Below are positions 16,720-47,286 of a stretch of DNA of 49,586 nt, piece after piece. The DNA is from an uncultured Chitinophagales bacterium (lineage in GTDB: Bacteria; Bacteroidota; Bacteroidia; Chitinophagales; JAHDHT01). A program made the position numbers and the translations under genes. Location of the stretch: the NCBI GenBank assembly GCA_938023075.1, contig CALHDG010000046.1:1-49586 (forward strand). Direction: 5' to 3'. Below the pieces are notes generated by a model that made no database searches, was not told the origin of the DNA, and saw only the letters and a program-made list of their open reading frames with translations. Each line of letters starts with the position of its first letter. Positions within the stretch are counted from its first letter, which is position 1.

Positions 16720-16756
16720 AACAAGCATCTTTTATATGAAGATGCTTGTTCTTTTT
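16720..16756 (+). terminator. Rho-independent terminator after the OmpA-family gene
   Basis: Perfect stem AACAAGCATCTT / AAGATGCTTGTT around a short loop, followed by CTTTTT. It begins 12 bp after the stop codon. Confidence 0.85.
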
Positions 16757-16828: not shown

Positions 16829-19501
16829 TTATCTTCGTATTGCTTTATACAGAAATGAAACTCCTATAAATATTAATATTAATACCCCAAGATATATTAA
16901 GTGAGATATATCTCCTCCACTTTCAATAGCTTGAGTATTGCCAATAACTGCCAAATTCGCCCAATAGAATGGATGCGCATCATCACAATTTTTTAAGTAG
17001 GTCAACTTGGCTTGTTGTAATGCTTCATCTTTACATGCCCCTTTTTTCAAGTTTTGATAAAATTCAACTATAATTTTTTTGGTGGATAAATCATTGGCTT
17101 GCCATAAAGTTGCCACTAAGCTAGGGCAGCCGGCATAGGCAAAAGCACGCGACAAACTCATTACCCCCTCACCACCTTCATATTTACCAAGGTTGGTTTC
17201 ACAGGCAGAAAGCACGGTTAGGTTGGCATGGATGTTTTGTTTATACAATTCATCTAACAATAAGCTATCATCATATAATTTAATTTGAGCTTGTTGCCGG
17301 TCATCTGCATTAACAATGGCGTGGGTTGAAAAATGCAGTACATTGTATTTTCCCATACTATCTAAAACATTGGCTTTGCTGGCGTGATCTTTAATTAAAG
17401 TATCCGTTTGAAAAATGTTGGCGATAGCTCTTATTTCAGCTAAACTTCCAGGCAATTCTATTAGTGAAGTATCTTTAAAGCTAACCGGCGCGATCCCTAA
17501 AATTTTTTGGTATTTCGGTTGTTGTACTTGCTGTTGCTGCATCGCAAATATAGTTGCCGAATATTGATAGCTGATACTGTGTGTTTTTAAAAGATAAGCT
17601 TGCTCTTTAAAATTTTTATTAGAAGACTCGGTAACCAATGCCTCAAAAGGCAAAAAATTTAATTGCCCATCAGGTATGATGATGATTTTTTTATTGGGTT
17701 CGATGGATAGCGGTTCAATAATTTTTTGATATACTCCATATGCCAAAGCATGGTAAGTTTGGTAGTTTGTTTCAGTAGAACTTATAGTGCTAATTAACTC
17801 GCTCAACTGTTTTGCATCAAGTTTGAGTTTATACAAATCAGGCACTTTATTTTGCTCAATTTTAAAAACGTATAACAGACTGTCTGCTTGAAAATATTCG
17901 AGTACTATATCATTTTTGTTTAGATGGGTTTTTAAATCTGCAAGGCTTATTGGTTGATCAAACTTGGCTTTTTCTTCAGCGAAGAGGCTATCTGCATTAT
18001 CGGTTTGTTTAAGCAATTGGTTTTGGGCAATACCTTCTAACAAAACTAATGCCCGGCTACTTTCCGCAATTTTGTACGCTCTTTGAATATACTGCGCCTC
18101 ATTGGTTTTATCATACAATTGCCAGGCAACGTTTATCGCTTTGCTATTCACCTCTTTCGCTTTTTGTTGTAGATACAGTTTGGAGCTTTCAAAATCATAT
18201 ATACTGCGCAGTTTCAATTTTACATAAAAAGCCAATTCGTAAGCTTGCAAAGCTAAGTCTAAACTATCTTGCCGGGTAAATACTTCGGCTAAACCTTCTA
18301 AGTTTTCGAAGATGGCGTTTTCGTTGAAGAATAAAGAAGTGTCCGGTAGCGAGTTTTGTTTGGGGTTAAACTTAGGTAAAATGGTTTGGAGCCCGAGGTA
18401 GAAGTGGTGTTTGGCGGAGTCGGGTTGATTTAGATTTAAATATGAATTGCCGACGTAGCCATAGTTTTTGGCAATTTCTCTTGAATTAGGTTGATAAATA
18501 TTCTTTGAAAGCTCTAAGCGTTTTTTGAACCAATATTTTACCGCTTGCATATTAGGCGGATTTTCAAAGCTTTTGAGCTGTGCCATTATGTAAGCATATT
18601 CTGCTATCTGCTCAATATTTGCTTCTTTTAAAACAGGTACTACAATGGACACTACTTGATTAAGCGAATCTAAATACCGAGAGGTTAATGTTATCTCATT
18701 TGTTTTCATAGCATATAAATCTTTAATTTTTTCTGTAATAACTTCAAGTTTTAAAAGTATTAAATCAGCATAAAGAGACGAAGATATTTTTTTACTCAGT
18801 CCTCTATTTATCCATACAAGCGCACTGTTATACTTTGCATAATTATTGTAAGCTCTTGCAAGGTTACGATAATGATCTACTTCTTGATCTATGTCATATG
18901 GTTCATTTTCATTTAAAATGTTGTAGGAATTGATGAGTTTCAAAGCATTTTGGGTAGCAACAATTGCGCGTTTATTGTCACCCAACCGTATATAAACAGC
19001 ACTTAAACTTTTGTAGCAATACTCTGCCAAATCAAAATCGCTTGTTAATAATTGATGTTTCTTAAAAACGCGTTCAATTTGTTCAAGATGAGTTTTAACA
19101 ACATTGTATTCACTTAATTGGTAATGAAACCAGGCTTTTTTGCCGTAAGCTTTACATATTTTAACTGCTTCATCTTTAGTTAAGCTATTTTTTTTGAGTT
19201 GTTCATTAAAAAAAGGAGATTCAATAATTTTATTAAGTTCATATATATGCCAAGAATAATCATCCAATTGAAAGTAATTGTCAGCATAATCTAATTTGTA
19301 AGAAAGCCAGCAATAAAAGTTATTGCCAGCTTTAAATTGATTAACTTTTGTATGGAGGTGCTCTACTAGTTTAACCGAGTCACCAACTGAGTGGTCTTCA
19401 TTTAAATATAGTTTCAGCGTATTATCAACACAAATTGGTTTTGCTGTACTAATTGAACAAACAGTAATTGTAAATACTGATAGAAGAATATATCTGTTCA
19501 C
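16829..19501 (-). CDS. Exported TPR-CHAT protease with C-terminal membrane anchor
   Basis: 890 residues. An N-terminal signal peptide (MNRYILLSVFTITVCSISTA) is followed by about 450 residues of helical TPR-like repeats. The C-terminal CHAT (caspase-like) domain, about 560-855, has the catalytic pair His727 (HFSTHA) and Cys767 (LSACET), then GVMSLSRAFAYAGCPSLVAT. Residues 868-887 are a transmembrane helix. CHAT proteases cleave partner proteins on sensing a signal. Here the signal peptide and terminal helix predict that the protease faces the periplasm, unlike cytosolic CHAT defence proteins. A secreted DUF11-like protein is encoded 12 bp upstream in the same direction and may be its partner. 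Confidence 0.85.
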   Translation of the reverse strand: MNRYILLSVFTITVCSISTAKPICVDNTLKLYLNEDHSVGDSVKLVEHLHTKVNQFKAGNNFYCWLSYKLDYADNYFQLDDYSWHIYELNKIIESPFFNEQLKKNSLTKDEAVKICKAYGKKAWFHYQLSEYNVVKTHLEQIERVFKKHQLLTSDFDLAEYCYKSLSAVYIRLGDNKRAIVATQNALKLINSYNILNENEPYDIDQEVDHYRNLARAYNNYAKYNSALVWINRGLSKKISSSLYADLILLKLEVITEKIKDLYAMKTNEITLTSRYLDSLNQVVSIVVPVLKEANIEQIAEYAYIMAQLKSFENPPNMQAVKYWFKKRLELSKNIYQPNSREIAKNYGYVGNSYLNLNQPDSAKHHFYLGLQTILPKFNPKQNSLPDTSLFFNENAIFENLEGLAEVFTRQDSLDLALQAYELAFYVKLKLRSIYDFESSKLYLQQKAKEVNSKAINVAWQLYDKTNEAQYIQRAYKIAESSRALVLLEGIAQNQLLKQTDNADSLFAEEKAKFDQPISLADLKTHLNKNDIVLEYFQADSLLYVFKIEQNKVPDLYKLKLDAKQLSELISTISSTETNYQTYHALAYGVYQKIIEPLSIEPNKKIIIIPDGQLNFLPFEALVTESSNKNFKEQAYLLKTHSISYQYSATIFAMQQQQVQQPKYQKILGIAPVSFKDTSLIELPGSLAEIRAIANIFQTDTLIKDHASKANVLDSMGKYNVLHFSTHAIVNADDRQQAQIKLYDDSLLLDELYKQNIHANLTVLSACETNLGKYEGGEGVMSLSRAFAYAGCPSLVATLWQANDLSTKKIIVEFYQNLKKGACKDEALQQAKLTYLKNCDDAHPFYWANLAVIGNTQAIESGGDISHLIYLGVLILIFIGVSFLYKAIRR

Positions 19502-19513
19502 ATTTTTTTATAA

Positions 19514-20992
19514 TTAATTTCCTGTTTTGCTTAATCTCGATTTATACTTATCATAAAGACTTTGAATTTTTCCATAATACTTTTCTGCTTTTTTATCATC
19601 ACAGGCTTCTTCCTTAGGTTTTTCATAAAAGCACTTTGCGCATATGCTGGTAGTTGCATCATTTGTTCTTACAGCTTCTATAGGTGGAGATATGCCAATT
19701 ATTTGATTTTCTCCTTCAAATACAATATTGGCAAAGGCACTAAACTGATTACCCTTAATACTAGAAGTTGTTTTTGCCTTTAATTTAAAGCTAGCCATGG
19801 TTTCTTTTTTAAGAGGCATGCTCGGATCGCCAATACCAATTAACTCAATATTTTTAATTGTATACAAGTAGGTATTCAACCCAATTTTATTAGAACTTAC
19901 CACTGCGCTGTTAAAATTTTTGGTGTCAAACGGGTTTGTATTAGTTATAAGCACACCATCCGGAAAAACAACTTCTATATAAACATTTACGGCATTTGCA
20001 TTTCCTTCATTTTCAAAATGAACGGTATAGATGAGCTCTTGCCCATTCAATTGATCTGGTGTTAAACAGTTTTGGTCTACTTCAATAGCATTTGGATCTT
20101 TTGCCTCTCCAGTACCTGCTTGACTAACATCTAAAGAAAGCATGGCTTTGTAAGTTCTCCCATCACAATTTAAAACTGCACTAACATTTAGAACATCTAT
20201 ATTTAATTCATTATGTGTAATATCTGTTGTTTTTACTTCAATAAAGATCAATCTGGCTCCGTCACCATTAAAGTTGCATTCATATCTAATATTACCACCG
20301 TCAAGTTGATTAAAATTCTCTGCATTATAATCTCTAAGTTCAATTGCTTGTAAAACCTCTCTTCTGGTGTTTGAATTCAAATCAACTTCTAAACTACACG
20401 CGTCATTGCACGAAGGTATTTGTATGATAATTACGTGTTCATCGTTAATTTGAAAGAGGTCATCTTTAGGGTTACTAAAGTCCATACTTAGCCTCTCATT
20501 GTTAGTTGGTAGTTTGTTGGTTTTGCTTAAGTTTGCAATCTCTTCATCATTTGCCTTAGCCACATTTAAGCCATTATATCCCCTTCTTAACATAGCATCG
20601 TCTGCATCTCCATTTATCACCTTTGGTTTATCACCACTAGCATATCTGTAATTTACTTTAATGTGATTAGGACTTTCTTCGGTACTAAATAAATCTTGCT
20701 TACTAATTGAATAAGAGCCGTCAGGGAATTCGTAATACAATGAAGGAGATTCTGCATTTCTTTTATTGTAATCTAAAATACGAAAGTAGGCATCTGAAAA
20801 GTTTACTGAATGTACTTGCTTACTACAATTTAGATAATCATCATCTGTGTCAAAATCGCAAGGTTGTTGCGATGAAGCTGAAAAGGAATCCAATAAAATA
20901 ATGGTACTGAATAAGAATTTAAATAAATTCTTATTTACTAAATCGCTGTAGATCATAAAGTCGTTCATTAAGGTTAAGTAATTTTCACTCAT
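19514..20992 (-). CDS. Secreted DUF11-like repeat-domain protein, partner of the CHAT gene
   Basis: 492 residues from the ATG at 20992; an ATG at 20956 would put the signal peptide (FKFLFSTIILLDSFSASSQ) nearer the N-terminus. The frame opens at 21034, but a terminator of the upstream gene overlaps that point. Residues about 310-400 (GQELIYTVHFENEGNANAV, YIEVVFPDG) match the DUF11 'conserved repeat' beta-sandwich of surface proteins. The C-terminus has a CAKC pair and a lysine-rich helix. It has no T9SS domain. It lies 12 bp ahead of the CHAT protease gene, so the two are co-transcribed. The function is unknown; it could be a substrate or sensor for the protease. Confidence 0.6.
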   Translation of the reverse strand: MSENYLTLMNDFMIYSDLVNKNLFKFLFSTIILLDSFSASSQQPCDFDTDDDYLNCSKQVHSVNFSDAYFRILDYNKRNAESPSLYYEFPDGSYSISKQDLFSTEESPNHIKVNYRYASGDKPKVINGDADDAMLRRGYNGLNVAKANDEEIANLSKTNKLPTNNERLSMDFSNPKDDLFQINDEHVIIIQIPSCNDACSLEVDLNSNTRREVLQAIELRDYNAENFNQLDGGNIRYECNFNGDGARLIFIEVKTTDITHNELNIDVLNVSAVLNCDGRTYKAMLSLDVSQAGTGEAKDPNAIEVDQNCLTPDQLNGQELIYTVHFENEGNANAVNVYIEVVFPDGVLITNTNPFDTKNFNSAVVSSNKIGLNTYLYTIKNIELIGIGDPSMPLKKETMASFKLKAKTTSSIKGNQFSAFANIVFEGENQIIGISPPIEAVRTNDATTSICAKCFYEKPKEEACDDKKAEKYYGKIQSLYDKYKSRLSKTGN

Positions 20993-21021: not shown

Positions 21022-21065
21022 AATAAAAAATCAACCGGTAATTAACAATCAGGCTTACCGGTTGA
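21022..21065 (-). terminator. Terminator of the TQNIEDA-repeat lipoprotein gene
   Basis: On the reverse strand TCAACCGGTAA pairs with TTACCGGTTGA, followed by a run of six T. It lies 50 bp past the stop at 21115 and separates this gene from the DUF11/CHAT pair downstream. Confidence 0.8.
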
Positions 21066-21114
21066 TGTTAGTCGTTTAATAGTTACATTGGATGTTTGAC
21101 TATTTTTGGGTCGT

Positions 21115-22500
21115 TTAGAATTTATCAATACTTAAAGTCAAAGTCTTTAAGCTCGGCTTAGTAGCATTGAGCAAAGCAATGTTCAATTGATTGCTAACCT
21201 GGTTTTCGTAATTCTTCAAATAGTTAATCGTAGTTGGATTAAGTGTTGCGGCAGAGGCTTGTATGTTATACTTTTTGGGCAAGGTTTTAATTTGTTTGGT
21301 TTTAAACGCCTCTTTCAAAATGCTCGCTTTAAACTTAGTCCGGTTAGAAAAAAACCATGGGTGAATAGACGGTCTTCTGCCGGGTGTGGTATTGTTGTTG
21401 CAATCCGCAAAATCAATATCGTTGTTTTCAGGTGGCGGCGGTGGAAACAAAATGGCTTCAATACTTTCTGCCAAACGCTGTTTATCTTTAATTACATTTT
21501 CATCAGGATTGCCGTAACTACAATGGTTCATCAAATCAATGGCATCTAAACCGGCAGCCATATAAGCCGTATTGTTATCTGGGTTAGTATTGTAAACCGC
21601 CAGAAAATCAGCATAAGCTATATTCGTATCTGAACAATATTGTTGATAGTCGGTGTTTTTGGCAACAACCGCATAACCCAAAGTAGTCCACAAAACGGCG
21701 GGTATAAAAAACAAGCTTAAACAAACGGCACCCAATAGTCCTGATAAAGAAGGTCCAATAATCTTTTTAAACACATTGGCACTTTTTGTCATCTTGAACA
21801 TAAACAAGAAAACCGGAACCGCAAAAAAGACGAGTGCGGCAATCAACAATAAAACATTAACGCCGGTATAAGTTGTTCTGCTCACCAACAGCGATACTTC
21901 GGTACCAGCAACCTGAATGGTTTCCTGCGTTTCATCGGCTACCGTTTTAATGGTTTCATTCACCAATACATTAAACCGGTCAATAATTTCTAATGAAGCA
22001 TCCGTTAACTGAGCAATGCGTTTGGCGGTGGCTTCATCTAAACATTTAATGCTGTTGGTAACAAGGTGGTTGGTTTCACGCAACAAAGTTTGACCTGATT
22101 TGGTTAAGGAGCCAATTACCCGAATCGCACTTTTTTCAGATTGTTTAATAATGTTCAACGTGCCATCTTCCACTGTTTCAATTACGGAGTTGGCTGACGC
22201 GGCAAATTCGGCAATCACTTCCTGCAGCTCGTCACCGGCAACGCCTACCAAATTAGCAGAAGAAGCTTCTAACTGAGCAATGGTGTTTTTGAGTTCTTTC
22301 ACTGCATCCTCAATATTTTGAGTGCCATCTTCAATGTTTTGGGTAGCATCTTCAATATTTTGAGCGGCATCTTCAACATTTTGGGTTGCTGGAATAATGT
22401 TCTCAGTGGCTTTCTTTAAAGCATTTTTACCAATGTTGGCACAAGAGCTGAAAAGCAAAACCATACAGCATAAAGTCGTAATTTTTAATTCGATTTTCAT
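21115..22500 (-). CDS. Repeat-bearing membrane lipoprotein, function unknown
   Basis: 461 residues. The signal ends in LFSSC (lipobox, Cys20). Residues about 38-68 are four seven-residue repeats of the type TQNIEDA, leading into a long helical, heptad-like region to about 210. Two hydrophobic segments follow (VLLLIAALVFFAVPVFLFMF and LLGAVCLSLFFIPAVLW). The C-terminal third is soluble, with a proline run (PPPPPEN) and an Asn/Thr-rich stretch. I do not recognise the family. The coiled-coil plus membrane layout recalls methyl-accepting or tether proteins, but no signalling motif is visible. It is transcribed alone, ending at the terminator at 21022-21065. Confidence 0.6.
   Translation of the reverse strand: MKIELKITTLCCMVLLFSSCANIGKNALKKATENIIPATQNVEDAAQNIEDATQNIEDGTQNIEDAVKELKNTIAQLEASSANLVGVAGDELQEVIAEFAASANSVIETVEDGTLNIIKQSEKSAIRVIGSLTKSGQTLLRETNHLVTNSIKCLDEATAKRIAQLTDASLEIIDRFNVLVNETIKTVADETQETIQVAGTEVSLLVSRTTYTGVNVLLLIAALVFFAVPVFLFMFKMTKSANVFKKIIGPSLSGLLGAVCLSLFFIPAVLWTTLGYAVVAKNTDYQQYCSDTNIAYADFLAVYNTNPDNNTAYMAAGLDAIDLMNHCSYGNPDENVIKDKQRLAESIEAILFPPPPPENNDIDFADCNNNTTPGRRPSIHPWFFSNRTKFKASILKEAFKTKQIKTLPKKYNIQASAATLNPTTINYLKNYENQVSNQLNIALLNATKPSLKTLTLSIDKF
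22303..22387 (-). repeat. Four 21-bp coding repeats
   Basis: Four tandem units of 21 bp within the lipoprotein gene, each encoding a variant of TQNIEDA. They differ by a few bases per unit, so they are old enough to have diverged but remain in frame. Confidence 0.7.
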
Positions 22501-31996: not shown

Positions 31997-33010
31997 ATGG
32001 ATATAGCAACCACCAATACTGCCGGTAGCGACATACTGGCTTTAAATGAAAAAATACAAGTAGAAAGTCAATTTGTAAGTGTGTTAACTGATGAGATCGG
32101 CAAAGTAATCATAGGGCAACAATATATGGTTGAACGATTATTGATCGGCTTATTGTCAAGCGGACATATTTTATTAGAAGGGGTACCGGGCTTGGCAAAA
32201 ACCTTAGCCATCAACACCTTATCCGCTGCGGTTAATGCAAAATTTAGTCGTATTCAATTTACTCCAGATTTACTGCCGGCTGATTTAATTGGAACCATGA
32301 TCTACAATCAGGCAAAAAACGATTTTGCCGTAAAGAAAGGTCCCATTTTCGCCAACTTCATTTTAGCCGATGAAATTAACCGGGCTCCGGCAAAAGTGCA
32401 AAGTGCCTTGTTAGAAGCCATGCAAGAACGTCAGGTAACCATTGGAGAAGAAACCCATAAATTAGAAGAACCGTTTTTAGTATTGGCAACCCAAAATCCG
32501 GTAGAACAAGAAGGAACCTACCCTTTGCCCGAAGCACAGTTAGACCGTTTTATGCTAAAGGTAGTTATCGGCTACCCAAACAAAGAAGAGGAAAAGCAAA
32601 TTATGCGCATTAACGTGTTGCAGCAGTTTCCTAAAGTAGAAGAAGTAGTTAAACCAAAGGTAATTTTAAGAGCCAGAGAAGTAGTGCGTGAAGTGTATAT
32701 GGACGAAAAAATTGAAAACTACATTTTAGATATTGTATTTGCAACGCGCGATCCGAAACAATATGGCATTAGCAGTTTAGAGCATTTAATAAATTACGGT
32801 GGCTCACCAAGGGCAAGTATTAACTTAGCCCTCGCCGCCAAAGCCTATGCTTTTATTAAACGCAGAGGCTACGTAATTCCAGAAGATGTGCGCGCCGTTT
32901 GCGAAGATGTGATGCGCCACAGAATTGGCATTACCTACGAAGCCGAAGCCGAAAACATCACACAAGAAAACATTATTTCAGATATTTTAAATAAGGTAGA
33001 AGTGCCATAG
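31997..33010 (+). CDS. moxR: MoxR-family AAA+ ATPase
   Basis: 337 residues. Walker A GVPGLAKT (62-69), Walker B FILADE (121-126), NRAPAKVQSALLEAMQERQV and LATQNPVEQEGTYPLPEAQL are diagnostic of MoxR ATPases. They act as chaperones that insert cofactors or assemble complexes together with von Willebrand factor A (VWA) domain proteins. It is the first gene of a Bat-type cluster: MoxR, DUF58, a BatD-like protein and a BatA-like VWA protein. A 160-bp repeat-rich gap separates it from the DUF58 gene. Confidence 0.95.
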   Translation: MDIATTNTAGSDILALNEKIQVESQFVSVLTDEIGKVIIGQQYMVERLLIGLLSSGHILLEGVPGLAKTLAINTLSAAVNAKFSRIQFTPDLLPADLIGTMIYNQAKNDFAVKKGPIFANFILADEINRAPAKVQSALLEAMQERQVTIGEETHKLEEPFLVLATQNPVEQEGTYPLPEAQLDRFMLKVVIGYPNKEEEKQIMRINVLQQFPKVEEVVKPKVILRAREVVREVYMDEKIENYILDIVFATRDPKQYGISSLEHLINYGGSPRASINLALAAKAYAFIKRRGYVIPEDVRAVCEDVMRHRIGITYEAEAENITQENIISDILNKVEVP

Positions 33011-33150
33011 AGAGAGAGAGAGAGGTTACAAGAGCCGAGAAGCGAGATGTCAGAAGCGAGAGAAAGAGCTTATAAATATCTTGTATCTGGCATCTCGCAT
33101 TTTTGCTCTCAGTTCCGATAACTGACTACTCGGTTCTGGCATCTCACATC
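33011..33150. repeat. GA microsatellite and inverted GAGATGYCAGAAGCGAG repeats
   Basis: A run of GA dinucleotides directly follows the moxR stop. GCGAGATGTCAGAAGCGAG at 33042-33060 recurs inverted at 33127-33147 (as CTACTCGGTTCTGGCATCTC) and partly at 33085-33100 (ATCTGGCATCTCGCAT). This type of degenerate repeat fills the gap between the first two bat genes. No promoter or terminator is clear. Confidence 0.6.
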
Positions 33151-33170
33151 TAAATAAAACTAACGCAACA

Positions 33171-34049
33171 GTGGAAACATCAGAACTGTTAAAAAAGGTA
33201 CGAAAAATTGAAATACGCACCAAAGGTTTGAGTAATCAGATCTTTTCGGGCGAATACCATTCTGCATTTAAAGGCAGAGGAATGTCTTTCAGTGAAGTAC
33301 GGGAATACCAATTTGGCGATGACATTAGAGCCATCGATTGGAATGTAACGGCACGGTTAAATACGCCTTACATTAAAGTTTTTGAAGAAGAAAGAGAACT
33401 AACTGTAATGCTAATTGTTGATGTTAGTCGCTCCAGCTTTTTCGGCACGGTTAACCAAATGAAAAATCATTTAATTGCTGAAATTAGTGCGGTGTTGGCA
33501 TTTTCGGCAAGTAATAATAATGATAAAGTGGGCTTGGTGATGTTTAGTGGAGAAGTCAATAAATACATTCCGCCTAAAAAAGGGCGTTCGCATATTTTGC
33601 GTATTATCAGAGAGTTGTTAGATGCCGATAGTTTGCAAACCACCTCAACCGATATTGGAGAAGCCCTTCGCTTTTTTAACAATGTGATGAAAAAGAAAAG
33701 CATCAGCTTTTTAATTTCGGACTTTATGGATGAACATGCTTATAAAGAAGCCTTAAACATTGCGGCAAAACGGCACGATTTGGTGGGTGTTCATATTTCT
33801 GACCCACGCGAACGAACTTTGCCCAACGTTGGTCTACTGCACGCCACCGATGCCGAAACGGGCAAAAAAATATGGATCAACACCGGTTCAAAAAAAGTAC
33901 GGCAAGATTATGAAAAACAGTTCACCGCAAATTTAGATCAATGTGTTGATATTTTTAAAAGAAGCGGTTCCGATTTAATGCAAATATCTACCGATCAAAA
34001 ATATATAAAAGCCTTAATGAGTTTTTTCAAAAGGAGGGGCGCACGTTAA
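33171..34049 (+). CDS. DUF58 (VWA-like) protein of the Bat cluster
   Basis: 292 residues from a GTG start. EYHSAFKGRGMSFSEVREYQ with FGDDIRAIDWNVTARLNTPY is the DUF58 signature, followed by a VWA-like fold with DVSRSS (metal-ion-dependent adhesion motif) and KVGLVMFSGEV. DUF58 proteins are the usual cytoplasmic partner of MoxR ATPases. The next frame opens 1 bp after its stop, but an R1 repeat intervenes before the true coding part of the BatD-like gene. Confidence 0.93.
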   Translation: METSELLKKVRKIEIRTKGLSNQIFSGEYHSAFKGRGMSFSEVREYQFGDDIRAIDWNVTARLNTPYIKVFEEERELTVMLIVDVSRSSFFGTVNQMKNHLIAEISAVLAFSASNNNDKVGLVMFSGEVNKYIPPKKGRSHILRIIRELLDADSLQTTSTDIGEALRFFNNVMKKKSISFLISDFMDEHAYKEALNIAAKRHDLVGVHISDPRERTLPNVGLLHATDAETGKKIWINTGSKKVRQDYEKQFTANLDQCVDIFKRSGSDLMQISTDQKYIKALMSFFKRRGAR

Positions 34050-43495: not shown

Positions 43496-44004
43496 ACATG
43501 TTTATTTCTATTGTTGTGTAAATATACAGGTTTCTTTCTTAAGCCAAAAAGTATAGAGAAAATTCTATGGGATGGATTGAGGCTGCAAACTGACTTTTAT
43601 AAGCATAATAAACACATTAAAAAACATTTCTATTCATTTCAATGCCTTATGCCAAACTTAAAAAATGTTAACAACAAGGTTAATTAGTTTTTATTTTAAT
43701 TTGAAAATAATTGGAATATAATGTTTTATGAAATTTAATTATAGTCTTCAATGTTAAAATTAATATTTCACACTATTTTTAGAGCAACATTATTTTTTAT
43801 GTTATACATTCGAGGCATTCTTAAACTAAAAACACAAACGCATTCTTATCGTGAAAATACCATTAGCATAAGCTCTTCTAATTTCAGCAATTTGAAGTAA
43901 TGAAGGGATATTTGGCTCTATGGAATTTTTTCAAGCTCAAAATTATTAATTTTTCAAACGACTTTTTTTATATGAAAATTTTATTAACTAAAAAATTTTA
44001 CAAC
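43496..44004. other. AT-rich intergenic region without a gene
   Basis: About 500 bp between divergent genes. It probably holds both promoters but no box convincing enough to list. The metalloprotease frame is open from 43900; its upstream ATGs (43900, 43972) lack a signal peptide at the right distance. Confidence 0.4.
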
Positions 44005-47000
44005 ATGAAACACTTAAGTAATTGCCTTAATTTTGGCATTATTGTTTTAACTAATCTATTCTTATTTATAAGTGCAGTTAACGCTAAAGATTTAATAGAA
44101 GTAGTATTAGATGACAATTTGGATTTTGCAACAAACAATTACAATATTCCGGCTACAGCAATCTATAATGACTTTAGTATGTCGGTCAATTTTACCCAAA
44201 TCAATATTTTTGAGCCAGCTTCTAACGAAGAATTTCCTGTAAATATTGATGGATTTTTTGAAGAAGGTAGCTCGCACGTTAAACTACAACTTAACCAAAG
44301 CAGTTTTGCTAGCCTAAAGCAAAGCAAACCCCAAAACCTGTTAGTTGAAATACCTGTTGCTAGTGGTAAAAAATTTACCTTAGCCTTAAAAAAGGGGAAT
44401 CCTATAAGTGATGATTTTCAATTTAAAAATGTTGATGGAAACGCGATTGCTTTTAACGAAGGCATCCATTATCAAGGTATTATAAAAGATCATGCTACCT
44501 CTTGGGCTGCCATTAGTATTTTTGAAGATTATGTAAGAGCCTTGTTTATTGATTATGAAGGCATTTACGTATTAAGTGCTATCAATCATTTCGACGATCA
44601 CTACCTATTGTACAATGATAAAAAATTGGCAGTTCCATACTATTCAAATTTATCTTGTGGAGTAGATGAATTAGAGGTTTTTGGCGAACATGGAATGGCT
44701 AAACAAGCTACAGGCAGTAGCCGAAGCTCAAAAAAACTGCAAGACAGGCCACTTAGAATTTCTATTGAAACGGATTATGCCATGTTTGAACATCAGCAAA
44801 ATTTTCAACACGTGTATAATTATGTAACGGCTACACTCAATGAAGCTGCCATGTTTTTCAGAAATGAATCCATTGATATTGAATTGTCGGAAATAGTGGC
44901 TTGGGATACGGAAGACACTTATGACAAAAACTCTGCCTCTACCGCTTTGCAAGAATTTGGTGAAAGAAGAAGGGATGCGTTTAATGGAGACCTATTACAC
45001 TTGTTTACTTCAGAATATAGAGATATAGGCGGTATTGCGAATGTTGATGCATTAGGGCAATGTTATTTATTTTACCCTCAATATGATATTAATTACGGAC
45101 CCTATGGGCTTAGTGTAGTAGATTTTTGGCCTTGCGCTTTTGGCTTATATCATTATGATGTTTGGACTTTTGTACATGAAATTGGGCATAATCTTGGCTC
45201 CAGACATACACATTTTCCTGTTTGGGAAGTAAACGATATGCCAAACCAAACCTTAGACAATGCCGAAGTTTGTCACGACCCTGCCATAAACTGTTTTGAT
45301 CACGAAACTACCCTGCAAGCTTTACAAAAAACAGGAGGCTCAATTATGAGTTACTATGTAGCAACGGAATATGGAGCTAGCTTTTATAGAGGGTATGGCA
45401 CTCAACCAGGAAATTTAATTAGAGATAACATTAATGAATTTTTCGATTTAGGTTGTATGGATGTTTTAGCTTGTAACTATAACCCAAATGCAAGTGTAGA
45501 AGATGGCTCATGCATATTTGGAAACCGTACCAACAACACTTTCATTTTTGAAGAAATACCTTGGCTTAATGGTCAAATAAATAAAATTAATTGCAGTAAT
45601 GAATCGATAATAGTATATACCAATCCAGGAGAAAATTTTAAAAATGTATTAATAAATAATGATGGATGCATTACAAATTATAATTGTAGTGGAGATATTG
45701 CCTATGGCATTGTACCAGATTTTAATACCATTAATATAGTTAGTTCATGGACCTGCAAAGACTGTAACGGCAATAGGAAAGGTTGTACAGATCCTAACGC
45801 TTGCAACTACAATGCTACCGCTAATTTTAACGATGGCACTTGCAACTATGGCAATACAACATGTACGGATAATTGCAACACTAACTGCACATGTTTAAAC
45901 ATATCTACTACCGCAAATACTAGTAACGATATTTTTGCACAATATCCTTGGTTGGCTAATGCTATTGGTTATAATGGGTTGTGCAACTTCGAAAAAATTA
46001 CAGAATATGATTTCTCAACTCATCAATTTATTAATATTGAATTTAATGATGGAACAGCACAACTTTACAGAGGAGACGGAACCTTTTATTGTACAACCAA
46101 TTTATGTTATGATTGTTTTGATCAACACATACCTAATCCTAATCTTGCAACCATTACTTGCTGGACATGCCCGGAAAACTGCGATGCACTCGGTGTAGTA
46201 ACTTACCAAATTTGCGATGGAGGACAATGGTATTATACCATTGAAACCACTGATGGTGAAACTATTGACCCTTACAACGATTTGTACAATATCAATTTCA
46301 GTTACCCAAATGGGGCAGTAGTTAACTTTAGTTATGTGGAAGAGTTTCCTTCTAACTGCGAATACGTAGAGAAAGGTGTTCAAATTAACTGTATTGAAGA
46401 AGTTGAGTTTCCGTGTAACTTTTCACATACCGGAACTGTTTTTTACGAAACGTGTGATGATGGTTTGGAATACTATTTAATTGAAATGGATAATGGTCAA
46501 ATTTTAGATCCCTACAATAGTTCTACCGTTAATTTTAATTTTGTAGATGGAGATATAGTTGAATTTGAATATTTACCCTATAACCAAACCTACTGTAATT
46601 TGTCAGATGTAGCCGGAATGATTTTATGTATTCGTTCAATTGGCTGCAACAATACCGGTATTGTGTTTGCCGAAAATTGTAACAACTCCAATTACTTAAT
46701 TAGAGCAACTGACGGATCAATAATTTACCCATATGATCTTTCTGGAAGTGGTTATGTTTTCCAAAACGGTGATATTGTAAAATTTGACTATTCAAGTACG
46801 TTTGCAAGTCCGTGCAGCGAAGCAACTTACGGTGTTTATTTAACTTGTATAGAAAAAATTGAATTGCCTTGTACACATACTGGTACAGTTATAAATGAAT
46901 TTTGCGATGGAACCAATTACAAGCTAATTGATATGGGTGACGCCGGAATTTTAGATCCTTACTTAAGCCCCATTGTAAACTTTGAGTTTGAAGAAGGTGC

Positions 47001-47286
47001 CACGGTTGAATTTGCATATCTGCCAATACCTTTTTCGCCTTGTGTAGCAGCAGGCGAATCTGGCATTTTAACATGTGTTCAAAATGTATGTCGTAACAAT
47101 ATTCGAACCATCAATTCAGTTCCCATTCCTGATGGCATGCACGGCAATGCAAAGCACATCATCACTTGGGGAGAAGTGCACCAATCTTCAAACGTAACCC
47201 TAAGAGCCAATAGAATTACCATGCCAGTAGGTTTTAAAGTAGAAGCCGGTGCCCGCTTTAAAACAATTAGTGACGGTTGCCAATGA
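44005..47286 (+). CDS. Secreted reprolysin-like zinc metalloprotease with C-terminal repeats
   Basis: 1093 residues from the ATG at 44005 (signal peptide to VNAK). The zinc site is HEIGHNLGSRH (His391, Glu392, His395, His401), with a Met-turn at Met448 (SIMSYY), as in metzincins of the reprolysin/M12 type. Two short GCxDxxACNYNxxAxxxDGxC modules follow. Residues about 726-1030 are four 75-residue repeats with the pattern TGxVxxExCDxGxxYYLI, DPY, FxxGxxVEFxYxP and C at the end. The last 60 residues resemble the terminal domain of the protein at 38080. It is likely an exported protease with adhesive repeats. Confidence 0.85.
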   Translation: MKHLSNCLNFGIIVLTNLFLFISAVNAKDLIEVVLDDNLDFATNNYNIPATAIYNDFSMSVNFTQINIFEPASNEEFPVNIDGFFEEGSSHVKLQLNQSSFASLKQSKPQNLLVEIPVASGKKFTLALKKGNPISDDFQFKNVDGNAIAFNEGIHYQGIIKDHATSWAAISIFEDYVRALFIDYEGIYVLSAINHFDDHYLLYNDKKLAVPYYSNLSCGVDELEVFGEHGMAKQATGSSRSSKKLQDRPLRISIETDYAMFEHQQNFQHVYNYVTATLNEAAMFFRNESIDIELSEIVAWDTEDTYDKNSASTALQEFGERRRDAFNGDLLHLFTSEYRDIGGIANVDALGQCYLFYPQYDINYGPYGLSVVDFWPCAFGLYHYDVWTFVHEIGHNLGSRHTHFPVWEVNDMPNQTLDNAEVCHDPAINCFDHETTLQALQKTGGSIMSYYVATEYGASFYRGYGTQPGNLIRDNINEFFDLGCMDVLACNYNPNASVEDGSCIFGNRTNNTFIFEEIPWLNGQINKINCSNESIIVYTNPGENFKNVLINNDGCITNYNCSGDIAYGIVPDFNTINIVSSWTCKDCNGNRKGCTDPNACNYNATANFNDGTCNYGNTTCTDNCNTNCTCLNISTTANTSNDIFAQYPWLANAIGYNGLCNFEKITEYDFSTHQFINIEFNDGTAQLYRGDGTFYCTTNLCYDCFDQHIPNPNLATITCWTCPENCDALGVVTYQICDGGQWYYTIETTDGETIDPYNDLYNINFSYPNGAVVNFSYVEEFPSNCEYVEKGVQINCIEEVEFPCNFSHTGTVFYETCDDGLEYYLIEMDNGQILDPYNSSTVNFNFVDGDIVEFEYLPYNQTYCNLSDVAGMILCIRSIGCNNTGIVFAENCNNSNYLIRATDGSIIYPYDLSGSGYVFQNGDIVKFDYSSTFASPCSEATYGVYLTCIEKIELPCTHTGTVINEFCDGTNYKLIDMGDAGILDPYLSPIVNFEFEEGATVEFAYLPIPFSPCVAAGESGILTCVQNVCRNNIRTINSVPIPDGMHGNAKHIITWGEVHQSSNVTLRANRITMPVGFKVEAGARFKTISDGCQ

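Follow-up and report, generated by a model that had tools for sequence, protein, structure and literature searches.

TPR-CHAT proteases and ECF σ factors

CHAT proteases are mainly known as intracellular enzymes, and Csx29, the tetratricopeptide repeat (TPR)-CHAT protease of the type III-E CRISPR system (Craspase), is cytosolic. DdvA of Myxococcus xanthus, which we take to be a single polypeptide made up of anti-σ, transmembrane (TM) and TPR-CHAT parts, would carry its CHAT domain outside the cytoplasm. Each is tied to an extracytoplasmic function (ECF) σ factor. Csx29 is activated, with Cas7-11, by RNA and cleaves Csx30, which is encoded in its own locus and inhibits CASP-σ (PMC10028731; this and the other articles cited are drawn on here from portions of their text). 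DdvA is the anti-σ of the ECF factor DdvS (PMC4374960), which controls an antiphage island (PMC12288465). The subject of the present analysis is a pair of adjacent genes on a 49,586-nucleotide contig (CALHDG010000046.1 of assembly GCA_938023075.1; hereafter, at its full length, the window) from an uncultured Chitinophagales bacterium. The pair comprises a gene for a predicted exported TPR-CHAT protease and, directly upstream, a gene for a predicted secreted immunoglobulin (Ig)-type protein, its partner. We read it, with confidence that stops a little short of even, as one of a family of signalling modules of the Bacteroidota cell envelope that can be thought of as a split, exported DdvA-like system.

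The initial annotation of this locus set it apart on the ground that described CHAT systems with known partners act in the cytosol. This does not hold generally, since DdvA is transmembrane, HetF is a membrane protein (PMC8406250) and so, apparently, is a CHAT protein of Bacteroides fragilis (PMC11854122).

The CHAT protein and its predicted export

The CHAT gene (16829..19501; this and all other features of the pair are on the (-) strand) encodes 890 amino acids from a GTG start, and its reading draws on the open reading frame (ORF) list, Pfam and an AlphaFold2 model of good quality scores (predicted local distance difference test, pLDDT, 84.3; predicted template modelling score, pTM, 0.82). 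The CHAT domain, residues 590-855 (16937..17734), matches PF12770 at E=1.2e-54 (186.1 bits, cut-off 24) and is placed at the same position by a genome-wide CHAT scan; the separase family PF03568 (Peptidase C50) stays below its Pfam cut-off in this protein. The catalytic His727 (codon 17321..17323) and Cys767 (codon 17201..17203) lie exactly where the initial annotation had put them, and the dyad is present in every one of 186 aligned CHATs (186/186). Ahead of the CHAT domain, helix pairs in the model and structure matches to Csx29 and TPR proteins outline a TPR-like helical superhelix (residues 39-481; 18059..19387), in which the sequence match to TPR_12 (E 0.0086) is below the Pfam cut-off. 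Helical repeats followed by CHAT are the TPR-CHAT (Csx29-type) layout, which the model and the fold matches bear out.

The N-terminal sequence, MNRYILLSVFTITVCSISTAKP, includes the hydrophobic stretch MNRYILLSVFTITVCSISTA, and residues 1-20 (19442..19501) constitute a putative signal peptide. Near the other end, residues 865-883 (16853..16909; helix 865-889 in the model) form a predicted TM helix followed directly by the positive tail KAIRR. The sequence carries a predicted export signal, an intact His/Cys pair and a C-terminal membrane anchor, and the caspase-like domain is predicted to lie on the outer side of the inner membrane, as had been proposed.

These signals extend across the family. 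A strict signal-peptide rule devised for this analysis, which is used for the main counts, is positive for 145/186 CHATs and 41/51 partner homologues, compared with 1/111 σ factors and 5/112 anti-σ-like proteins as controls. (An earlier, lax rule fired on 212/348 control ORFs and was replaced for these counts.) Of the CHATs, 137/186 possess a C-terminal TM, and of the σ factors none; in 129 of the 137, positive charge is higher in the tail than on the side preceding the TM. The counts of export signals, TMs and charges fit a type I layout, with the signal peptide removed, TPR and CHAT parts periplasmic and a short tail inside; the layout remains a prediction.

The partner and its recurrence beside CHAT

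The partner gene (19514..20992; 492 amino acids from an ATG, with an alternative TTG start at 21034) lies on the same strand, 12 bp upstream of the CHAT gene, as first annotated, and is delimited by ORFs, Pfam and alignment to the partners of other CHATs. A probable signal peptide region at about residues 9-41 (20870..20968) is indicated by the N-terminal sequence and the signal-peptide rule. A degenerate PKD-like stretch follows at about residues 84-125 (20618..20743), assigned from profile matches, a flavobacterial partner homologue (L256) that carries PKD_4, and an alignment (A7) in which D91 and G92 are invariant and whose profile matches collagenase PKD domains. Residues 299-432 (19697..20098) constitute a DUF7619 domain (PF24595, 36.2 bits, cut-off 27). 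The description of this protein as secreted and DUF11-like therefore stands in its first half, as a predicted export signal; DUF11 (PF01345) scores 20 bits, below its cut-off of 24.6, and that label gives way to DUF7619, which exceeds its own.

The other 36 partners that lie beside a CHAT, judged from their tails, end in a barrel-like segment (26), a type IX secretion system (T9SS)-like segment (6) or a TM (3), with one unclear. Pfam confirms the T9SS sorting domain PF18962 in L127, L131 and L175 and DUF7849 in L256, which consists of PKD, DUF7619 and DUF7849 and which ends in aromatic residues, as an outer-membrane barrel would.

Ninety-three full-length CHAT genes, that of the window together with its paralogues and with relatives from its order, provide a first view of the surroundings. 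A same-strand gene lies within 300 bp upstream of 55 of them; PF18962 is found in 12 of these neighbours (all 55 scanned, two CHATs included), DUF7619 in seven and a subtilase domain in five. Among 35 of the 37 downstream neighbours (the two dropped being CHATs), PF18962 is found in three, and the 25 families listed for them do not include DUF7619. Before some CHATs a T9SS-sorted subtilase replaces the DUF7619 partner, so that two proteases follow one another (L153:9809-11920; L161:2041-4971).

The partner of the window aligns with those of L014 (in its own genome), L127 (two copies), L131, L175 and L178, at 17-22% identity to the window protein, over a length that runs from the signal peptide through PKD-like and Ig-like parts to DUF7619. 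A profile built from these rows found further long matches in 298 genomes of the order, and 20 loci were fetched around the next-best of them, chosen on partner score with no use made of CHAT. A TPR-CHAT comes next downstream in 10 of the 20: nine are same-strand CHAT genes (that of L241 across a run of N), and in L225 the contig ends inside the N-terminal part of the TPR-CHAT. No CHAT comes next downstream in L223, L226, L227, L229-L232, L234, L235 and L237. DUF7619-type matches by themselves are frequent in large secreted proteins (194/298 genomes match the partner profile at 1e-8), and the claim of pairing therefore concerns the long partner form. A search with the single partner sequence gave weak domain matches only (12/198 and 10/395 genomes, own genome included).

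A single-protein scan of genome contigs gave no relative, whereas an alignment-based scan of GTDB contigs did. The best 80 loci of that scan (from Saprospiraceae, Flavobacterium, Algibacter, Aquimarina, Winogradskyella, Runella and others) form a set from named genomes in which 85 CHAT ORFs were judged, eight that are short or open at the 5' end having been left out. Eighty of the 85 pass the lax signal-peptide rule and 74 have a C-terminal TM; the partner is directly upstream of 22, within 300 bp in 21 cases and at 334 bp in L257. Conservation of the pair across Bacteroidota, proposed as a check by the initial annotation, is thus found in both selections; the pairing recurs, so the lack of conservation that was named as grounds for giving up the proposal is not what is seen.

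Flavobacterial maps (L255, L256, L301, L311) have an anti-σ and a σ gene and, divergently from these, small genes whose products are mostly secreted or lipoprotein-like, a partner of ~650 amino acids, the CHAT gene and another small gene. The last is a retropepsin-like aspartyl protease gene in both maps tested (PF13650), overlapping the end of the CHAT gene (L256:10405-10875; L255:10339-10824). On a tree of 186 CHAT rows, partner presence needs 10 label changes, compared with 34.2 in shuffles, and the row nearest to the window CHAT is L178, which has both a DUF7619 partner and a σ pair.

σ and anti-σ-like genes

Genes absent from the initial annotation suggest a signalling reading of the family: an ECF σ gene and an anti-σ-like gene are found beside many of its members. 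Both are present in the fetched stretch of 41/93 CHAT-selected loci of the order (46/101 with partner-selected loci included) and within 6 kb of 51/85 named-genome CHATs (best 80 loci). Pfam detects Sigma70 regions in 4/5 σ proteins tested, above cut-off in two. The anti-σ-like proteins share a conserved helical N-terminal part of ~80 residues; a TM follows, lying between residues 55 and 150 in 93/112, and beyond the TM comes a TPR part.

The partner, σ and anti-σ profiles were built from loci found here, and the last two were rebuilt from their own matches, which makes them circular; the cleaner tests are the partner-selected loci and a genome-wide background. In the latter, a CHAT gene is no more than 8 kb away from 17/31 anti-σ-like genes in six relatives' genomes, compared with 0.59 expected (17/44 and 0.81 expected with every row retained; 17/34 for frames up to 400 amino acids), and 18/41 CHATs have an anti-σ-like gene nearby. 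(What this covers operationally is CHAT matches at ~3e-27 or better, with genome G000 left out and a Poisson expectation that assumes even placement; the A5 profile holds two genes of the tested genomes, that of L231 in G181, not CHAT-linked, and that of L174 in G043, CHAT-linked.)

Topologies of neighbouring products also correspond. Among 56 exported CHATs with an anti-σ-like gene within 3 kb, the TM of that anti-σ-like protein is clear in 51, weak in four and absent in one (L156, counted although doubtful, its 'anti-σ' starting like a lipoprotein). Of three cytosolic-class CHATs, those of L092 and L152 adjoin a TM-less anti-σ-like protein and that of L146 (also counted although doubtful, its start being probably misplaced) adjoins one with a TM. 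Eleven CHATs of ambiguous topology stand outside this comparison (anti-σ-like protein with a TM in nine, a weak one in one and none in one). In these small numbers of sequences, CHAT and the TPR part of the anti-σ-like protein appear to share a compartment, which contact between them would require. A fused form is not seen: the anti-σ N-domain (A4) gives no match at E 1 in the 186 full-length CHATs, while 110/124 anti-σ-like proteins match it as a control.

A class I anti-σ gene is nearby for only 6% of Bacteroidetes ECF σ factors (PMC7406223). The TM-TPR proteins that adjoin CHATs are candidates for a further anti-σ class.

Paralogues in the genome of the window

The window's genome (6.1 Mb, 288 contigs) has 16 CHAT matches, a number that includes cytosolic copies and fragments at contig ends. 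Exported copies at L014, L015, L020, L022 and L025 come directly after a secreted protein, often one with a T9SS-like tail or leucine-rich repeats (LRR). With a lax signal peptide or a C-terminal TM taken as the mark of export, 7/9 export-marked CHATs with a judgeable upstream region have σ and anti-σ genes divergently upstream on the contig: C56, C186, C144, C249 (a broken CHAT frame), C8, C211 and C283 (CHAT cut by the contig end). Profile search finds no upstream σ and anti-σ genes for C46, which is the window, and C193; C191 starts too near its partner to judge.

Other arrangements are also present. On C212 a TPR-CHAT that has neither signal peptide nor TM (L024:5775-9309) is followed at 13 bp, on the same strand, by an ECF-like σ gene, possibly a cytosolic CHAT-σ pair. 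Two very similar 129-residue CHAT ends at contig ends (L027:2-391 on C40; L028:6564-6953 on C169) suggest recent duplicates broken by assembly. Large secreted proteins with CHIDDW after the signal peptide and a T9SS-like tail (L015:255-5741, L246:13196-17056, L249:10168-14439) adjoin CHAT genes or σ/anti-σ pairs.

A proposed signalling module and its alternatives

In the reading that we favour, the surface Ig-type partner would occupy the outer envelope, with the part of a sensor or of cargo, and would hold or trigger the periplasmic CHAT protease by way of the TPR superhelix; the active protease would cut the periplasmic TPR domain of the anti-σ-like protein, or the partner itself, and the cut anti-σ-like protein would free its σ factor to transcribe the operon. 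The scheme resembles DdvS-DdvA, but with anti-σ and TPR-CHAT on separate proteins. By its sequence the window copy is an odd member: it has no σ genes on its contig, a predicted hairpin (see below) would set the pair off from the gene before it, and its partner appears anchorless. Because no σ pair lies on the contig, the copy may signal as an orphan to a paralogous σ pair elsewhere, or may have kept only the step between protease and partner.

If the module reading is right, this protease class would enter cell-surface signalling by way of an exported, anchored CHAT branch, tied to σ factors, that keeps its dyad and recurs within genomes. A more specific claim is that in Bacteroidota a periplasm-facing caspase-like protease is the regulated site-1 protease of ECF σ factors, with a surface Ig protein activating a TPR-CHAT that cuts a TPR-bearing TM anti-σ. 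The system would then be DdvA in split form, present as several paralogous modules in a genome, and it might explain part of the Bacteroidota ECF factors that have no known class I anti-σ gene nearby; we consider this claim more doubtful than probable.

A number of observations weigh against the module reading. There is no σ or anti-σ profile match on the 49.6-kb contig of the window, and no σ pair is in view for 52/93 CHAT loci of the order or 34/85 named-genome CHATs (best 80 loci); genomes G186 and G161 have no CHAT near an anti-σ-like gene. The identity of the anti-σ-like proteins is drawn from position, topology and TPRs only: in seven of them tested, no Pfam anti-σ model matched at E 0.01, while TPRs were seen. 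No promoter motif is shared by σ genes and window above shuffles. The window CHAT has a long end branch (1.11) with weak support nearby, and no starred set of the tree holds it. Its partner ends in a charged helix, which is not an anchor, and has neither a TM nor PF18962 (sequence and Pfam), so that the surface or membrane anchor that would mark it as belonging to the pair family is not seen; its structure model is poor (mean pLDDT 45.6), with only residues ~299-443 usable and left uninterpreted.

In an alternative proposal, in essence that of the initial annotation, the DUF7619 partner is the periplasmic substrate of CHAT, cut for its maturation or release, and σ only controls expression. This needs no local σ pair, and the window has none; the partner is directly upstream and, as the few label changes on the tree indicate, inherited with CHAT; and there is precedent in Csx29 cleaving Csx30 of its own locus (PMC10028731). 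Against it, other CHATs are preceded by unrelated proteins (LRR and subtilase proteins and further T9SS cargo), and a slot for sensor or cargo fits the arrangement equally. We consider it unlikely. On another view, a housekeeping envelope CHAT happens to share a transcript, under an ECF σ, with cargo of the T9SS or the outer membrane, as the T9SS sorting domains of its neighbours (12/55 upstream, 3/35 downstream) might indicate. The specific clustering with one type of anti-σ and the match in topology count against this view, which we regard as improbable.

A TPR-CHAT might, on the other hand, serve mainly as a binding scaffold that stabilises the anti-σ or the surface protein and have no catalytic role. 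DdvA, which has its TPR-CHAT inside the anti-σ factor, lends this some plausibility; retention of His and Cys in 186/186 members argues for catalysis, and a scaffold role seems distinctly improbable. Finally, the pair could be an immune, competition or conflict module of the cell surface: the two other systems known to join TPR-CHAT and σ touch CRISPR, namely Csx29 (PMC10028731) and DdvS with its antiphage island (PMC12288465), PADLOC TPR models recognise flavobacterial CHATs and that of L178 (E 8.2e-7, 1.7e-4), and an immunity function has been proposed for Bacteroides CHATs adjacent to a type VI secretion system (T6SS) (PMC11854122). Neither the CHAT nor the partner of the window is matched by a PADLOC model at E 0.01, in a survey that did not extend to defence genes around the loci, and we regard such a function as very improbable.

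Surroundings of the pair

Between the partner and its upstream neighbour lies a terminator-like element, a 12-bp hairpin followed by a T-run (21030..21066, (-) strand; fold z -4.41), which is not listed by a terminator pattern scan since its loop exceeds the pattern. The scan places another terminator-like hairpin between the CHAT gene and a convergent OmpA gene (16720..16750, (+) strand); 2 such sites were found compared with 4.0 expected in shuffles. The upstream neighbour itself (21115..22500, (-) strand; ORF, Pfam, PADLOC) encodes a lipoprotein-like coiled-coil membrane protein with central hydrophobic stretches and a weak ZorA-type match (PADLOC E 9.7e-9), which is probably coiled-coil similarity; it is not assigned to the unit. 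Elsewhere in the window are a MoxR ATPase gene beside one for a DUF58/vWA protein (31997-34049) and a gene for a 1128-residue reprolysin-like metalloprotease (43900-47286).

Comparison with known systems

The best fold matches of the CHAT model are Csx29 structures, separases and DdvA, in a structural ranking that is a re-ranking of Foldseek matches only. Separase (Peptidase C50), with its related protease fold and helical N-terminus, reaches Z 27.2; it is a eukaryotic and intracellular enzyme. Csx29 is the best Foldseek match (Z 31.0, root-mean-square deviation (rmsd) 11.1, 538 residues aligned) and is likewise a TPR-CHAT protease associated with an ECF σ and its inhibitor. It differs in that the window CHAT is predicted to be exported and membrane-anchored, and no Cas7-11 or CRISPR association is seen: no Cas protein is found among the 20 window ORFs scanned with Pfam (smaller ORFs left out).

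Three further proteins or systems share single features with the pair. The cyanobacterial divisome protein HetF also combines CHAT, TPR and one TM, but with CHAT on the N-terminal side (residues 1-555), and the word periplasm is absent from the text portions of PMC8406250. The CHAT of the T6SS V2 region of Bacteroides fragilis is a Bacteroidota protein, apparently transmembrane, that differs in its T6SS context and proposed immunity function; the text portions of PMC11854122 mention no σ, DUF7619 or protease role. In the Porphyromonas T9SS, PorA/PorXY-SigP provides a case of a sorted surface protein that likewise influences an ECF σ, although by a two-component route and, in the text portions of PMC7712824, with no CHAT.

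Among solved proteins, DdvA of the DdvS-DdvA system (PDB 8rot, 8rw5) is closest, followed by Csx29-Csx30-CASP-σ. With the CHAT-domain profile, DdvA scores best among solved proteins (E 1.8e-7; Csx29 ~1e-3), His and Cys are present in the alignment, and the fold match (Z 21.7, rmsd 10.6-11.3, 556-567 residues aligned) covers model residues 103-854. The title of PDB 8rot names DdvA, which carries the TPR-CHAT, a transmembrane anti-σ factor. In contrast, CHAT in the Bacteroidota forms a protein by itself, predicted to be exported, that has a TM but no anti-σ N-domain, and the window CHAT has no ECF σ gene on its contig, although σ and anti-σ genes accompany the family loci in the proportions given above. 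None of the open-access articles listed describes, in its title or the opening of its abstract, an exported CHAT with σ and anti-σ; since DdvA and Csx29 set a precedent, the family is not categorically new. With DdvA, Csx29 and the Bacteroidota family, a TPR-CHAT meets an ECF σ factor in at least three settings, and the Bacteroidota version is the one that is, as predicted here, exported and split.

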